From: Pseudomonas helmanticensis
Lineage (GTDB): Bacteria > Pseudomonadota > Gammaproteobacteria > Pseudomonadales > Pseudomonadaceae
DNA: 64,000 nucleotides
NCBI RefSeq assembly: GCF_900182985.1
Contig: NZ_FXUY01000001.1
Coordinates: 4,988,501-5,052,500 of the forward strand
Reading direction: 5' to 3'
Shown here: positions 43,958 through 50,228 of the stretch, piece after piece
How positions within the stretch are numbered: the stretch's first letter is position 1
Layout of the letters: every line of letters starts with the position of its first letter
Position numbers and translations under genes: made by a program
The notes under the pieces: model-generated
Database searches by the model: none
What the model saw: the letters and a program-made list of their open reading frames with translations, nothing else
Told to the model about the DNA's origin: nothing

Positions 43958-44632
43958 ATGCAGCCCTTCGTAATTGCTCCGTCGATTCTCTCCGCCGACT
44001 TCGCCCGCCTCGGCGAGGAAGTGGACAACGTTCTCGCCGCTGGCGCCGACTTCGTTCACTTCGACGTCATGGACAACCACTACGTGCCGAACCTGACCAT
44101 CGGTCCGATGGTTTGTGCGGCATTGCGCAAGTACGGCGTCACCGCGCCGATCGACGCGCACCTGATGGTCAGCCCGGTAGACCGTATCGTCGGCGATTTC
44201 ATCGAAGCCGGCGCGACCTACATCACCTTCCACCCGGAAGCCACGCTGCACGTCGATCGTTCGCTGCAACTGATACGTGAAGGCGGCTGCAAATCCGGTC
44301 TGGTGTTCAACCCGGCGACCCCGCTGGACGTGCTCAAATACGTGATCGACAAAGTCGATATGGTCTTGCTGATGAGCGTCAACCCAGGCTTCGGCGGGCA
44401 GAAGTTCATTCCCGGCACCCTCGACAAACTGCGCGAAGCGCGGGCGATCATCGATGTCTCGGGCCGTGACATCCGTCTGGAAATCGACGGCGGCGTCAAC
44501 GTCAACAACATCCGCGAAATCGCTGCGGCTGGCGCTGACACTTTTGTCGCCGGCTCGGCAATCTTCAATGCGCCGAACTATCAGGAAGTCATCGACAAGA
44601 TGCGTTCCGAACTGGCGCTGGCTCGCCCATGA
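43958..44632 (+). CDS. rpe: Ribulose-phosphate 3-epimerase
   Basis: Rpe interconverts ribulose-5-phosphate and xylulose-5-phosphate in the pentose phosphate pathway. The 224-residue TIM barrel has [14 protein letters not shown] at the start, the metal ligands [13 protein letters not shown] and [14 protein letters not shown], and the C-terminal phosphate site ([14 protein letters not shown]). It overlaps gph by four bases and leads the rpe-gph-trpE unit, an order shared by many proteobacteria. Confidence 0.98.
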
Positions 44633-45447
44633 GCGGGTTTGAGCAGCTGTTCCCGGGAAAACTGCCTCGGCTGGTGATGTTCGATCTGGATGGCACGCTG
44701 ATCGACTCGGTTCCGGACCTGGCAGCAGCGGTGGACAACATGCTGCTCTCCCTCGGCCGCAAGCCTGCCGGCATCGAATCGGTGCGCGAGTGGGTGGGCA
44801 ACGGCGCGCCGGTATTGGTGCGCCGCGCTTTGGCCGGTAGCATCGATCATTCGGCGGTGGATGACGTCGAGGCCGAACATGCGCTGGAAGTGTTCATGGA
44901 GGCTTACGCCGCCAGCCACGAGCTGACCGTGGTCTATCCCGGCGTGCGCGACACCCTCAAGTGGCTGCAAAAGCAGGGTGTGGTCATGGCGCTGATCACC
45001 AACAAGCCGGAGCGCTTCGTCGCGCCGCTGCTGGATCAGATGAAAATCGGTCGCTATTTCAAGTGGATCATCGGTGGCGATACCTTGCCGCAGAAAAAAC
45101 CTGACCCGGCGGCGCTGTTCTTCGTGATGAAAATGGCCAATATCCCTGCCTCGCAATCGTTGTTCGTCGGCGACTCGCGCAGCGACGTGCTGGCGGCGAA
45201 AGCGGCGGGGGTCAAATGCGTGGCGCTGAGTTATGGCTACAACCATGGCCGGCCAATTGCCGAGGAATCGCCGGCATTGGTGATCGACGATCTGCGCAAA
45301 CTAATTCCCGGTTGCCTCGTCACGGCCGCTGAGATAACGTTGCCCGACGCTTCTCAATCCCATTCTGGAAACGCCATCGTGGTGGTCACTCGCAAACTCT
45401 GGATGAAAGTCATCAAGGCCCTGGCCCGCTGGCGTTGGCGCGCCTGA
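44629..45447 (+). CDS. gph: Phosphoglycolate phosphatase with C-terminal Trp-leader tail
   Basis: A HAD-family phosphatase of 272 residues: [15 protein letters not shown] (nucleophile Asp), [20 protein letters not shown] and [12 protein letters not shown]. It removes phosphate from 2-phosphoglycolate. The enzyme fold ends near residue 228. The last 41 residues are a low-homology tail finishing [12 protein letters not shown], with three Trp codons in the final 17. That tail aligns with the separate 28-codon frame before trpG (49384-49470), so the gph stop codon appears to double as the end of the trpE leader peptide. trpE follows 71 bases on. Confidence 0.93.
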
Positions 45448-45518
45448 CTTGTTCCTCGCCGGCCTGCCGGCACGTTTGCCTACCTGACTGATTTGCCCCT
45501 CACACCACGAGGCACCTT
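45403..45518 (+). promoter_or_regulatory. Predicted trpE leader and attenuator region
   Basis: The Trp codons at 45430-45432 and 45436-45438 close the gph frame. GCTGGCG (45428-45434) can pair with CGCCGGC (45457-45463), while GCCGG (45458-45462) can instead pair with CCGGC (45467-45471), so the two helices are mutually exclusive. Ribosome position on the Trp codons could choose between them. No U-tract terminator is visible, and the final output might be on translation, because CCTC before trpE can pair with the GAGG ribosome site. The mechanism is inference. Confidence 0.55.
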
Positions 45519-46997
45519 ATGATCCGCGAAGAATTCCTGCGCTTGGCCGCTGACGGCTACAACCGCATCCCGCTGGCCTGCGAAACCCTGGCCGACTTCG
45601 ACACGCCGCTGTCGATCTACCTGAAACTGGCCGACCAGCCCAACTCCTACCTGCTCGAATCGGTGCAGGGCGGCGAGAAATGGGGCCGTTATTCGATCAT
45701 CGGCCTGCCATGCCGCACGGTCATGCGCGTTCACGACCATCACGTCAGCATCACCGTCGATGGCGTCGAAACCGAAAGCCACGACGTCGAAGACCCGCTG
45801 GCCTTCGTCGAAACCTTCAAGGCACGCTACAACGTGCCGACCATCGCTGGCCTGCCGCGTTTCAACGGCGGCCTGGTCGGTTACTTCGGTTACGACTGCG
45901 TGCGTTATGTCGAGAAGCGCCTGGGCAAGTGCCCGAACCCGGATCCTTTGGGTGTGCCGGATATTTTGCTGATGGTTTCCGATGCCGTCGTGGTGTTCGA
46001 CAACCTCGCTGGCAAGATGCACGCGATCGTGCTGGCCGACCCTGCGCAGGCCGATGCCTTCGAACAAGGTCAGGCGCAATTGCAGGCGTTGCTGGAGAAA
46101 CTGCGTCAGCCGATCACCCCGCGCCGTGGCCTGGATTTCAGCAAGCAGCAGTCGGCTGATCCGGTGTTCCGTTCGAGTTTCACTCAGGACGACTACGAAA
46201 AAGCCGTCGATACCATCAAGGAATACATCCTTGCCGGTGACTGCATGCAGGTTGTGCCGTCGCAGCGCATGTCGATCGACTTCAAGGCTGCGCCGATCGA
46301 TCTGTATCGCGCACTGCGTTGCTTCAACCCGACGCCATACATGTACTTCTTCAACTTCGGCGACTTCCACGTCGTCGGCAGTTCGCCGGAAGTGCTGGTG
46401 CGGGTCGAAGACAACCTGATCACCGTGCGCCCCATTGCCGGTACACGCCCACGTGGCGCGACCGAAGAAGCCGATGTGGCGCTGGAAGAAGATCTGCTGT
46501 CGGATGAAAAGGAGATCGCCGAGCACTTGATGCTGATCGACCTGGGTCGTAACGACACCGGTCGCGTATCGGAAATCGGTTCGGTGAAACTCACCGAGAA
46601 GATGGTCATCGAGCGTTATTCCAACGTGATGCACATCGTCTCCAACGTCACCGGCCAGTTGAAGGCCGGGCTGACGGCGATGGACGCGCTGCGGGCGATT
46701 CTGCCGGCGGGCACTTTGTCCGGCGCGCCGAAGATTCGTGCGATGGAAATCATCGACGAACTTGAACCGGTCAAGCGTGGTGTGTATGGCGGCGCGGTCG
46801 GTTACTTCGCCTGGAACGGCAACATGGACACTGCGATTGCGATTCGCACGGCGGTGATCAAGAACGGTGAACTGCACGTGCAGGCCGGTGGCGGCATTGT
46901 CGCCGACTCGGTACCGGCGCTGGAATGGGAAGAAACCCTGAACAAACGCCGCGCGATGTTCCGCGCCGTTGCCCTGGCCGAACAAACCCCGGACTGA
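45519..46997 (+). CDS. trpE: Anthranilate synthase component I TrpE
   Basis: TrpE converts chorismate to anthranilate with ammonia supplied by TrpG. The 492 residues include the tryptophan feedback site LLES at 45-48 and the chorismate-binding C-terminal half ([56 protein letters not shown]). GAGG precedes the ATG. trpE is split from trpGDC by estA, as in other pseudomonads. A strong terminator lies 230 bases downstream. Confidence 0.98.
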
Positions 46998-47061
46998 TCG
47001 CAGATCCCTAGTGGGAGAGGCCATGTGTGGTAAGGGGATTTATCTGTGGTGTGGGATTCAT

Positions 47062-47195
47062 TGTGGCGAGGGGATTTATCCCCGCTCGGCTGCGCAGCAG
47101 TCGTAAAACCATTACATGCGGTTTGCCTGATACACCGCGGTGTTTGGTTTAGGGGCTGCTTCGCACCCCAACGGGGATAAATCCCCTCGCCACAG
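47062..47195. repeat. REPIN of the GTGGCGAGGGGATTTATCCC family
   Basis: The left arm TGTGGCGAGGGGATTTATCC (47062 onward) and right arm GGGGATAAATCCCCTCGCCA (47173-47192) are inverted copies flanking about 80 bases. This is the first major REP family of fluorescens-group genomes and the only pair of its kind in the window. Confidence 0.88.
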
Positions 47196-47226
47196 GTTAA
47201 TGTCTCTCACCCCAGAAATGATCCAT

Positions 47227-47259
47227 AAAAAGCGGCGCCTGTGAGGGCGCCGCTTTTTT
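47227..47259 (+). terminator. Intrinsic terminator after trpE
   Basis: AAGCGGCGCC (47230-47239) and GGCGCCGCTT (47246-47255) form a 10-bp stem with loop TGTGAG, followed by a T run. A preceding AAAA makes it partly bidirectional, so it may also serve estA. Confidence 0.85.
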
Positions 47260-47279
47260 ATGACCTGCAACAACCCTCC

Positions 47280-47312
47280 GTAGGAGCTGCCGCAGGCTGC
47301 GATCCTTTGATC
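47280..47312. repeat. REP element (single copy)
   Basis: GTAGGAGCTGCCGCAGGCTG plus CGATCCTTTGATC, one half of the same REP family as at 16.6 kb, without an inverted partner. It lies just past the estA stop. Confidence 0.85.
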
Positions 47313-47318
47313 TACCGC

Positions 47319-49226
47319 TTAAAAATCCAGCACCACCCCAACATTCAAACCCTGCTGGGTAAAGTCATCATCCTTGCGGAACGTATACCCGCCACGCAGC
47401 GCCAGATCAGCGGTGAGCTTGTGGCTGACGCCCAGACTCAACCGGTTCAAATGGCTCTGCGGCGTGTAACCCTCAAGTTTGAAGTCGTTCGCCGGCAAGG
47501 TATTGAGTGCGATGTTGACCTTTTGCACGTCATCCTCGTACTCACGCTCGTGAGCGTACTCACCATACACCTGGGTTTGCGGAGTGAAGTTGTACTTGCC
47601 CTGCAAGCCGAGGCCGAGGCGTTTCGAATCGCGGGTCTGGTCGTCAAAGGTCAGGGCCGTGGCGCGGTTGCTTTTCTCCGAGTAACCGTCGACATCGACG
47701 CTGGCGTAGTCGGCGCTGATGAACGGCGACAGGTGCCACTCGCTGCCCGGCTGGGCAATGTCATAACCGATACGCGTGCTGAACGCCCACAGGCTGCCGT
47801 CGGTATCGCCTTTTTCTGCACCTTCGCTGACGCCCAGATCAAACTTGCGCTTGAGGTTGTCGTACTCGAGTTTGCCGCCGGTCAACGCCATGTCAGCCCA
47901 CCAGCGATTCTGCTGGAACTGGGCGAACGCGGTGGCCATGTAGCTGTTGAGTTTGTAGTCGGAATCGTTATGACCAGCCTCGAGGTTCTGCCGGTAGAAA
48001 CCGCCCGCCACACCGACACGCCACGCCTCGTTGAGACGATAGCTGCCGCCGACGTTGAGGTTGTAACCGCTGCCATCGGCGCTGGCGCCGCTGCTTTGGC
48101 TATCGACGTCGACATGCTGACCACCCGCTGAAACGATCGCGCGCCATTGGCCAACCGCTTGCCAGTTTTCCCAATCGGCTTGCCATTGGCTGCGCAGTTC
48201 ATCCTGATGCGCGCGGACGGTGGCGTGGGCCATTTCCGGCAGCAATGTCAGTTCCCATGGCGCCGCCAGCAGGGAATAGGCGTAGTCGGAGATCAGTTTC
48301 TGGCCGGCTTCGGTCGGGTGCACGCCGTCGTTGTAGATCAGCTTGCTCGGATCCGGGGTCGCACTGTTGATGCCGTAACGGGCGTTTTCCGGGCAACTGC
48401 TGCCGCTGAAGCAGGTCGCGGTCAGATTCTGATCGGTGGCCAAGCCAAAGCGCCCGGGATTGGCGAACACTTCCGACAGCAGTACCGGAATGTTCAACGG
48501 AATGATTTCGGCGTTGATGCCTTGCAGGCGTGTCACCAACTGGCTATTGAATTGCGCGGCGAGCTGGCTGCTGAACGACTGCAGCGGTGTGCCATTGATC
48601 GCCGGAGTCAGGCCGACGTCAGGCAGCAACCAGACCATCACGTATTTGGCGCCGGCGGTTTGCAGCGCTTGCACACTGTCGGCCAGGCGATCGGCGCCGG
48701 CATTGGCTTGCGGCAGGCTGAGAATGCGACCCTGGAGGAAGTCGTTACCGCCGCCGGAAATGTAATACAGCGCATTCGGGTCGGCACGGAAGCCGTTCGA
48801 TGGCAGGTAACCGGCGCGGGTGCGTTCGCCTGTGGCGGATTGTGTAGTGATCGAATCGAGGATCTGATCGGTTCGATAACCGCCAACCGCCCAGTTATTG
48901 CCGTCGGGCTGACCGTTTTCGGCGCGCACTGCCGAACTCGATGAAGCTGTCTGATCCGGGGTGAAGCCCAGTCGTCCACCGAGTAATTGCGTGGAGTTCA
49001 GCGAACGTACTTCGCCGCTGCCATCCAGGTAAACCGGGCCGGTGCGGTTGGTGTAACGCTGGGTGGCACCGGCCGGGCCGCCGGTGTCCCTGAAGGTGCC
49101 GGCATCGTTGAGGCTGTCGCCAAACACCACGAAATTCGAGTAAGGATTGGGTGCGGCATTGGCCTGGGCACAGGCCAGTGCGAGGAGGCAGCCGGCCAGC
49201 GGTACAAACAACGTCTGTTTGATCAT
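47319..49226 (-). CDS. estA: EstA/EstP autotransporter GDSL esterase
   Basis: An outer-membrane esterase of 635 residues. The signal peptide ends near AQANA (residue 24). The GDSL lipase passenger has nucleophile Ser38 in [18 protein letters not shown], and the Asp/His pair [11 protein letters not shown]-terminal autotransporter barrel (about 370-635) ends in Phe (VGVVLDF), as outer-membrane proteins do. Homologues face the outside and affect rhamnolipid production and motility in P. aeruginosa. It stands alone between trpE and trpG in the opposite direction to the trp genes. ATG 49224-49226 is preferred over an in-frame TTG six bases up. Confidence 0.93.
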
Positions 49227-49634
49227 GAGCAAGTCCGTTTATTTATTGTTGTAGGTGAACGAAACGACAGTACCAAAAACTTCCGGCCTTTTGCCATCGG
49301 TCGCGAATCCTCCCCTGGATTTATCCCCCAAAGCCCCGGCCATATTGCACGCTCCGCCCAGCTAAGTTACTGTGCCGGAACGTATGAACGAGACCTTCCC
49401 CGTGTTGATCACCAGCAAACTTCTGGATCAAGTCATCAAGGCACACGCCCGCTGGCGTTGGCGCGCCTGAATCTTTTCTGCCGGCCCCGCCGGATCTGTA
49501 TCGCTTTGCCTTCCTTGCCTGTTTGAAATGCCGCTGTGCCGACGCGTCTACCTGCGTCCGACATCGTGCAGCGCCCTGCGGGCAAGTCATCTGAAGGCTG
49601 TCTCCAAGTCAGAATTCAAGAGGTTCGAAACGCC
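49227..49634. promoter_or_regulatory. estA-trpG intergenic region containing the trpG leader
   Basis: These 408 bases hold a promoter-like TTGCAC-17-TACTGT (49345-49373), the 28-codon leader (49384-49470) and an attenuator-like hairpin set after it. The promoter would start only a few bases before the leader ATG, so it may not be the true one. The last 140 bases before trpG hold a small GCCC-TGC-GGGC hairpin and nothing else I recognise. Confidence 0.5.
49384..49470 (+). CDS. trpL: Predicted trp leader peptide upstream of trpGDC
   Basis: A 28-codon frame opens at ATG 49384 behind GGAA and ends VIKAHARWRWRA, with Trp codons at 49453-49455 and 49459-49461 just before TGA. It aligns with the Gph tail ([12 protein letters not shown]) over about 22 residues, and 24 bases at the 3' end are identical in DNA. 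After it, CTGGCG (49452-49457) can pair with CGCCGG (49488-49493), and CCGGC (49481-49485) competes for the same GCCGG. It would sense tryptophanyl-tRNA supply through ribosome stalling, by the known principle of trp attenuation. A leader for trpGDC is plausible, but expression is unproven. Confidence 0.75.
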   Translation: MNETFPVLITSKLLDQVIKAHARWRWRA

Positions 49635-50228
49635 ATGTTGCTGATGATCGACAACTACGACTCCTTTACTTACAACGTTGTGCAATACCTCGGCGAGTTG
49701 GGTGCCGAAGTCAAAGTAGTGCGCAACGACGAATTGACCATCGCCGAAATCGAAGCACTCAAGCCTGAGCGCATCGTGGTATCGCCAGGCCCTTGCACGC
49801 CGACCGAAGCCGGCATCTCCATCGAAGCCATCAAGCACTTCGCCGGCAAACTGCCGATCCTCGGCGTCTGCCTTGGCCACCAGTCCATCGGTCAGGCCTT
49901 TGGCGGTGACGTCGTGCGTGCGCGTCAGGTAATGCACGGTAAGACTAGTCCGGTATTTCACGAGGACAAGGGTGTTTTCGCCGGTCTGAATCATCCGCTG
50001 ACGGTTACCCGCTATCACTCGCTGATCGTCAAGCACGATACTTTGCCCGATTGCCTGGAACTGACCGCGTGGACTCAGCACGATGACGGTTCGGTCGACG
50101 AAATCATGGGCCTGCGTCACAAGACCCTGAACATTGAGGGCGTACAGTTCCACCCCGAGTCGATCCTGACCGAGCAGGGTCATGAACTGTTTGCCAACTT
50201 CCTCAAACAAACCGGCGGCACGCGCTAA
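49635..50228 (+). CDS. trpG: Anthranilate synthase glutamine amidotransferase TrpG
   Basis: TrpG releases ammonia from glutamine for TrpE, and in many bacteria also for PabB. The 197-residue class I amidotransferase has the triad Cys79 ([11 protein letters not shown]), His173 and Glu175 (VQFHPESIL). The ATG at 49635 gives the family start [14 protein letters not shown]; the 99-base in-frame extension is leader RNA. First gene of trpGDC, nine bases before trpD. Confidence 0.98.

Follow-up and report, generated by a model that had tools for sequence, protein, structure and literature searches.

Why does the gene for a phosphoglycolate phosphatase (gph) end in Trp codons directly ahead of trpE, and does this end serve the enzyme or the operon that follows? 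We pursued this question in a 64,000-nucleotide stretch of a Pseudomonas helmanticensis contig (NZ_FXUY01000001.1, positions 4,988,501 to 5,052,500), here called the window, in which the following features lie.

44629..45447, + strand: gph, phosphoglycolate phosphatase; an open frame with four Pfam HAD matches and a best PDB match
45379..45447, + strand: trpE leader peptide of 22 codons with a GTG start, in frame with gph; GTG in 148/148 leaders, low third-position change
45430..45438, + strand: the two Trp codons, in TGG-CGT-TGG; TGG in 148/148 and 147/148 leaders
45519..46997, + strand: trpE, anthranilate synthase component I (Pfam PF00425 and PF04715)
49635..50228, + strand: trpG, anthranilate synthase component II (Pfam PF00117)

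The end of gph and the leader inside it

The open frame of gph (44629-45447) encodes 272 amino acids. Four Pfam HAD matches above cut-off reach no further than residues 191-225 of the product, and the top PDB sequence match (2hsz) extends to residue 225; PF13419 (E 2.4e-35) covers residues 16-199 and leaves the tail outside. By these matches, Gph was assigned as a phosphoglycolate phosphatase (HAD) with predicted activity. Its HAD part reaches to about codon 225, and the tail beyond overprints the putative trpE promoter and the trpE leader, both of which the final 41 or so codons of gph cross in frame. The ATG of trpE lies at 45519, separated from the gph stop by 71 nt. The initial annotation had described a Gph tail past the HAD fold, with Trp codons by the stop and trpE 71 nt on, and the open frame, the Pfam matches and 2hsz all bear out this description.

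The same junction was read in other genomes. The genus sample comprised 119 genomes, of which G079 was left out before the counts (no gph match); the other 118 had gph at E <= 1e-60, and all 118 loci were read. A family search matched 145 of 148 genomes, and 31 loci were chosen from it to reach 18 other genera, with two of the 31 (L249 and L250) belonging to the window's own genus. One family locus, L196, was the sole one of the 149 loci in which no leader was found before trpE; it was excluded, leaving 30 further loci in the counts. At the order level, 95 genomes had a trpE match and 20 loci were fetched, which enter no count; in several of these, among them L215 and L216, a Trp-rich frame precedes trpE, and in others it does not.

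Across this sample, a short frame whose Trp codons cluster close to the stop was found just 5′ of trpE in 148/149 loci, and a frame ending RWR[WC] preceded trpE in 118/118 genus loci and 30/31 family loci. The Trp codons of the Gph tail occupy 45430-45432 and 45436-45438. Because TGG is kept at the first position in 148/148 leaders and at the second in 147/148, this ending is not a matter of chance. The distance from the leader stop to trpE is 64-75 nt in 137/148 leaders.

Where the leader begins was less well anticipated. It had been proposed that an internal ATG at 45406-45408 might allow the leader to be made separately. The ATG in question, that of MKVIK, is actually at 45403-45405, and as a leader start it was rejected, given that its codon is ATG in 140/148 leaders and lacks ATG in 8/148, whereas a GTG stands 20-34 codons before the leader stop in 148/148. 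The idea of a separately initiated leader thus survives in that the leader appears to have its own start in the gph frame, but the conserved start is GTG 45379 and not an ATG.

Upstream of this GTG, and still within gph, lies a promoter-like pair.

45312..45317, + strand: TTGCCT, -35 hexamer of a putative internal trpE promoter; TTGC in 106/106 fused loci
45335..45340, + strand: TAACGT, -10 hexamer, separated from the -35 by 17 nt; TANNGT with this spacing in 106/106 fused loci

In all 106 loci in which gph and the leader form one frame, TTGC-- stands at spacing 17 from TANNGT inside the gph frame. The free leaders of split loci likewise have a GTG start and a promoter-like TTGNNN-17-TANNNT ahead of them. 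Such a pair was present in 41/42 split loci, three of the 41 being weak matches at spacing 18; the -35 is TTGATT or TTGCTT in 27/41 and otherwise a variant, and the -10 is TAGTGT or a variant. On a tree of 93 fused loci, no change was placed at the TTG of the -35 or at the T, A and final GT of the -10; for comparison, the spacer sites show about 7-9 changes on average and up to 21. The argument for the promoter is one of conservation, because our method of picking promoters gives spacing 17 an advantage of half a point and a generic promoter scan found no site in 44400-49700. This conservation points to a putative, sigma-70-like promoter of trpE's own at 45312-45340.

Two loci vary in the region 5′ of the leader. 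In L126 (genome G113), a run of 7-nt repeats (GCGGCTT) 5′ of the leader reaches into the -35 region and gives several possible TTGCGG boxes; possible changes in the length of this run might tune the promoter. In L212 (genome G134), a group II intron (Rfam RF00029, above the gathering score; 518-604, - strand) lies between gph and the trpE leader, and no promoter-like pair was found before the leader.

Fused and split forms and the origin of the join

In 100/118 genus loci and 6/30 further loci, gph and the leader share one uninterrupted frame that begins at the start of gph and closes at the stop of the leader. The 18 non-fused genus loci comprise 15 split loci (L115-L129), two frameshifted ones (L130 and L132) and one tandem duplication (L133), and 24/30 further loci have a leader that is not fused. 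The best 80 named relatives listed share at least 89% identity, and every one of them is fused, but they are not independent. In a tree of concatenated Gph core and TrpE, read for topology without support values, the fused genomes form one clade, and the sister group and deeper branches are split. Inside the fused clade, the frames of L249, L130 and L132 are shifted, and L133 carries the tandem duplication. L208 (g13), from a divergent genome, is split yet nested in the fused clade, a placement that may be an artefact. The leader is intact in all three frameshifted genomes, and therefore the fusion is not required. As for L133 (G051), the gph-leader-trpE junction occurs in tandem there, with a truncated trpE running into a second gph copy and two leaders; this duplication may be an artefact, because assembly contamination is 9%.

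The tail had been expected to go with the trpE neighbourhood, and leader and trpE do follow gph in the 118 genus loci, in L133 behind the duplicated piece. In most sampled loci of other genera the leader is free, and it looks older than its join to gph. The comparison among genomes shows the free form in relatives, a single fused clade, a conserved promoter-like sequence, the GTG, the Trp codons and the covarying helices described below.

The gph stop of split loci indicates how the join may have come about. In eight split loci it is a TGA within the -35 (seven TTGATT, one TTGATC), and in five others it is the TAG of the -10. In the window, a Cys codon, TGC (45313-45315), occupies the place that the TGA stop has in some split relatives, and this -35 codon is TGC in 106/106 fused loci. 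A single A-to-C change could therefore lose the stop yet keep the -35. Moreover, TTGCTT alone accounts for 11/41 split loci, so the -35 after such a change is a variant that split loci also use. The join thus looks like the loss of one gph stop codon inside the trpE promoter. The initial annotation had supposed that a former free trpL was joined to gph by loss of its own stop or start; the joining of a leader that is free in relatives and in the gph frame here is upheld, but what was lost appears to be the gph stop in the -35 and not a stop or start of trpL.

We propose the following course of events. The ancestor would have had an old Trp-codon leader between gph and trpE, with its promoter, GTG, hairpin and long-range pairing, and the gph stop would have been a TGA inside a -35 of TTGATT. 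A change to TTGC would have preserved the promoter, put a Cys codon in place of the stop and let the gph frame run on across the promoter into the leader. We infer that the free form is ancestral and that the fused form arose by this one change. An overprint of an older leader and promoter, formed by the 3′ end of gph, is, as a whole, the best explanation of the locus, and we consider it probable.

Substitution patterns are consistent with this overprint. The 93 loci used for these counts are the fused ones with a spacer length of 38. Changes per site at the three codon positions were 5.1/3.4/17.4 in the last 60 gph core codons, 9.3/7.2/9.0 in the promoter-leader spacer and 0.7/0.3/2.4 in the leader. 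With 2.4 changes at third positions, compared with 17.4 for the gph core, even the silent sites of the leader are conserved, and the spacer, by its counts over the three positions, is without protein constraint. These data bear on the alternative that the tail has a function in the Gph enzyme itself. The conservation of the last residues in fused loci would agree with it, but Gph ends at 225-239 aa in split genomes, the spacer is without the protein constraint just mentioned, and frameshifted tails exist in L130, L132 and L249; we regard a functional tail as very improbable.

Whether the fusion itself is under selection is a separate matter. From the -10 to the GTG, the spacer of fused loci measures 32, 35, 38, 41 or 44, a single class modulo 3, versus 16/15/10 for the three classes in 41 split loci. 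No in-frame spacer stop occurs in 93/93 gap-free fused loci, whereas three simulations averaged about 18-21 stops and reached zero in 0, 1 and 0 of 200 runs; the observed zero is partly built in, because the 93 loci were chosen as fused, and the simulated null is about fourfold too high, because the same simulations overpredicted frame +1 stops (19.5-22.9 versus 5 observed). When 110 loci were taken as the fused clade, with L208 left out, the frame was kept in 106/110; three had lost it by frameshift, L133 was the duplication, and frame loss by substitution was not visible among the 110. Length changes in the clade were in frame in five cases versus three frameshifts, each of the latter in one genome. 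Taken from these comparisons, there is moderate evidence that the spacer frame stays open more than expected.

One possible reading is a neutral fusion, in which the gph stop was lost once, the tail is harmless and only the promoter and leader are selected. The nearly equal spread of spacer changes over the codon positions and the renewed loss of the frame in three genomes (L130, L132 and L249) fit such a history, which is harder to reconcile with the frame kept in 106/110 loci, the five in-frame versus three frameshift length changes and the fewer spacer stops than simulated. We find neutral fusion quite conceivable and lean slightly against it. A contrasting reading makes the translation of gph the actual Trp sensor of trpE, with the fusion kept for this. 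The absence of in-frame stops and the single length class modulo 3 speak for it, whereas the choice of the 93 loci as fused, the inflated null and the three clade genomes that lost the frame by frameshift speak against it. Further evidence on this gph-coupled sensing came from the folding of the leader RNA.

RNA pairing around the leader and possible control of trpE

Five elements of the leader RNA are considered here.

45373..45384, + strand: leader initiation region GCCATCGTGGTG, complementary to the trpE Shine-Dalgarno (SD) region (permutation tests)
45392..45397, + strand: box A, GCAAAC, covarying with box B
45458..45471, + strand: hairpin GCCGG-CCTG-CCGGC, 10 nt after the leader stop (position, and strength versus shuffles)
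45474..45479, + strand: box B, GUUUGC, covarying with box A
45503..45513, + strand: CACCACGAGGC, with the trpE Shine-Dalgarno GAGG at 45509-45512 (pairing and permutation tests)

The best hairpin begins 9-10 nt past the leader stop in 135/148 loci, and the hairpin score was reached by 85% of 140 distinct sequences versus 8.7% of shuffles. Boxes A and B covary (z -8.0, 0/300 permutations), also among 47 divergent loci (z -5.5, 0/1000). On alignment A1, which holds 43 of 65 representatives, the A:B pairing beat all 500 shuffles in cells paired (78.7% vs 74.7%), cells changed on both sides (17 vs 8.4) and covariation (0.184 vs 0.128), and two of the five measures failed against the shuffles (pairs changed on both sides, 122/500; further pair types, 129/500). 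Versions of the pairing slid along A1 were lower on cells paired and on covariation. RNAalifold on A1, where the aligner misregisters the hairpin, returned neither long-range helix; on a second alignment of 65 loci it returned both A:B and the hairpin.

The second long-range helix joins the leader start region to the SD region of trpE. It covaries at z -7.6 (0/300 permutations) and, among the 47 divergent loci, at z -3.7 (0/1000); its mean energy is -17.0, compared with -11.1 when the partner is shuffled and -11.6 when the 24 nt ahead of gph are used. Covariation and energy therefore both indicate that the downstream SD pairs with the leader region, as in a translational attenuator. Together, the two covarying helices are hinting at control of trpE translation.

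Other pairings were tried. In the 47 divergent loci, the leader start with the post-hairpin stretch, box A with the SD, and the Trp codons with the SD or with the hairpin were not significant. The post-hairpin stretch and the downstream region gave z -3.8 (0/300) with 126 distinct sequences and z -0.1 with the 47 divergent loci; this candidate was set aside as shared ancestry because its signal vanishes in the latter. Between the Trp-codon stretch and the downstream region there is a weak signal (z -2.1, 4/300; z -2.0, 18/1000) that is unexplained.

These results have to be weighed against classical transcription attenuation, in which the post-stop or Trp-codon hairpin would be an intrinsic terminator that competes with an antiterminator. 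The Trp codons adjoin the leader stop, the hairpin is conserved, attenuation of both trpE and trpGDC has reportedly been published for P. putida, and the Trp-codon hairpin of the trpG leader scores as terminator-like, all in agreement with this account. However, no terminator-like site with a U-tract was found at the trpE hairpin (45458), where ACGTTTGCC comes next, and the Trp-codon stretch, tried as an antiterminator, does not covary with the hairpin (z -0.7; z 0.1 with 47 loci). We regard transcription attenuation by these elements as possible but doubtful.

Folding with modelled ribosomes gave a mixed picture. Over 63 loci, the hairpin had a probability of 0.87 with a ribosome on the Trp codons, 0.53 with none and 0.37 with a ribosome at the stop. 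Over 39 loci, the pairing of the SD with the leader start was 0.55 without a ribosome and 0.56 once a single ribosome had stalled on the first Trp codon, and it fell to 0.44 with a stalled and one queued ribosome and to 0.06 with a stalled and two queued ribosomes; it was 0.09 with one initiating at GTG and 0.12 with one stalled and one initiating. Release of the trpE SD on stalling was not seen in these 39 loci, since its unpaired probability was 0.22-0.27 in all modelled ribosome states. A simple release of the SD on stalling thus finds no support in the folding, which keeps the SD locally paired throughout.

We suggest that the leader would be made mainly from the internal promoter and GTG and that, during Trp shortage, ribosomes held at the Trp codons would raise trpE output. 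Part of this control would be exerted at trpE translation, because the leader start region pairs with the trpE SD region. On gph-trpE read-through RNA, gph ribosomes would also meet the Trp codons, and those queued behind a stalled one could help keep the leader start from masking trpE. For the reading in which gph translation is the working sensor, the fall in SD-start pairing from 0.55 to 0.06 is favourable, as two queued ribosomes would, because of their spacing, include gph ribosomes. However, the leader has its own putative promoter and a GTG, and a ribosome initiating at GTG, alone (0.09) or with a stalled one (0.12), has nearly the same modelled effect without any gph ribosome, which weakens the gph-coupled reading. 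It is possible that gph ribosomes report tryptophan; that the fusion is kept as a working sensor is, we think, unlikely. The most elaborate version would be a translational Trp switch in which the leader ribosome-binding region masks that of trpE, queued gph ribosomes hold the mask open, and one base change in the -35 created the arrangement, a combination that strikes us as distinctly unlikely. If gph-coupled switching were true, translation of an enzyme gene would double as a sensor of the next operon.

The trpG leader, wider meaning and known systems

The trp genes of the window fall into two units, and trpG is preceded by a leader of its own.

49402..49470, + strand: second leader, before trpG, VLITSKLLDQVIKAHARWRWRA; GTG start at 49402 or in-frame ATG at 49384, stop at 49468-49470

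Between trpE and trpG, a convergent frame occupies 47319-49232 on the minus strand; a matching frame is named estA in a relative in an excerpt of PMC6722718. A GC-rich inverted repeat with an A-run and a T-run (47227-47259), which lies between trpE and this frame, resembles a two-way terminator and is absent from the terminator scan output. Rfam trp leader families gave no match in 44400-50000 up to E 1; the sole match there was to GcvB, at 47091-47261 and weak (23.9 versus 42 bits, below the gathering score), over a stretch with GGGGATAAATCCCC, which is more likely a repeat element than GcvB.

The initial annotation had noticed the ending of the Gph tail in a free-standing frame before trpG, and the second leader, ahead of the trpG ATG at 49635, confirms it. 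By eye, the likeness to the Gph tail extends over all 22 codons of this leader, from its GTG on, and not over its ending alone. Where trpG lies apart from trpE, the second leader was found in 28/28 and 20/20 loci and in 69/69 named loci; where trpG follows 7-117 nt behind trpE, it was found in 0/60 loci and in 0/7 named loci, some genomes occurring twice in these lists and the named loci being close relatives. Because it occurs only where trpG stands apart, a leader goes with each separate anthranilate synthase unit. When the two trpE helices were transferred to the trpG leader, they showed no covariation (z +1.8 and +0.5; 39 distinct sequences) and were rejected there. It is possible that the mechanism of the trpG leader is different from that of trpE. 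In the window, a hairpin formed from the Trp codons of the trpG leader (49454-49477), followed by TGAATCTTTT, is terminator-like in the scan, and a stalled ribosome would cover it. In L271, the trpG leader has three Trp codons (RWRWRWRA).

The gph-trpE junction suggests how the 3′ coding end of an unrelated upstream enzyme gene can take in a regulatory leader, promoter included, with no visible loss, and it supplies a likely single step for this. It is also a warning that a conserved protein tail can be regulatory sequence. The fused, split and re-split relatives constitute a natural test set, and the covarying pairing between the leader and the trpE ribosome-binding region makes the mechanism of Pseudomonas trpE attenuation directly testable.

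Among known systems, the E. coli trpL attenuator places a short leader, with its Trp codons side by side, ahead of the first trp gene. The leader described here is likewise short and carries neighbouring Trp codons before a trp gene; unlike trpL, it is in frame with the upstream gene, starts with GTG and has no detected U-tract terminator at the trpE hairpin. The erm/cat kind of translational attenuator has a leader sequence that pairs with the next gene's Shine-Dalgarno region, as the leader here appears to do. However, the pairing arm here is the leader's own initiation region, which lies about 46-57 nt 5′ of the first Trp codon and would therefore be out of reach of a single stalled ribosome. 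A close precedent is attenuation of trpE and trpGDC in P. putida, which Olekhnovich and Gussin reportedly described in 2001: the genus and the two operons are the same, and the control is, by the title, attenuation. We found no published account of a gph-trpE leader overlap in the open literature searched, the 2001 P. putida study being known by its title. The leader also resembles peTrpL of Sinorhizobium meliloti, which is likewise a trp attenuator leader peptide; what sets peTrpL apart is a role, described in the abstract of PMC7298713, in the regulation of a multidrug resistance operon. Finally, an excerpt of a P. aeruginosa 3′ end study describes early 3′ ends at trpGDC in azithromycin-treated biofilms, by a potential GTG uORF (PMC8297930), and such a uORF, as that excerpt presents it, fits the GTG start of the leader.
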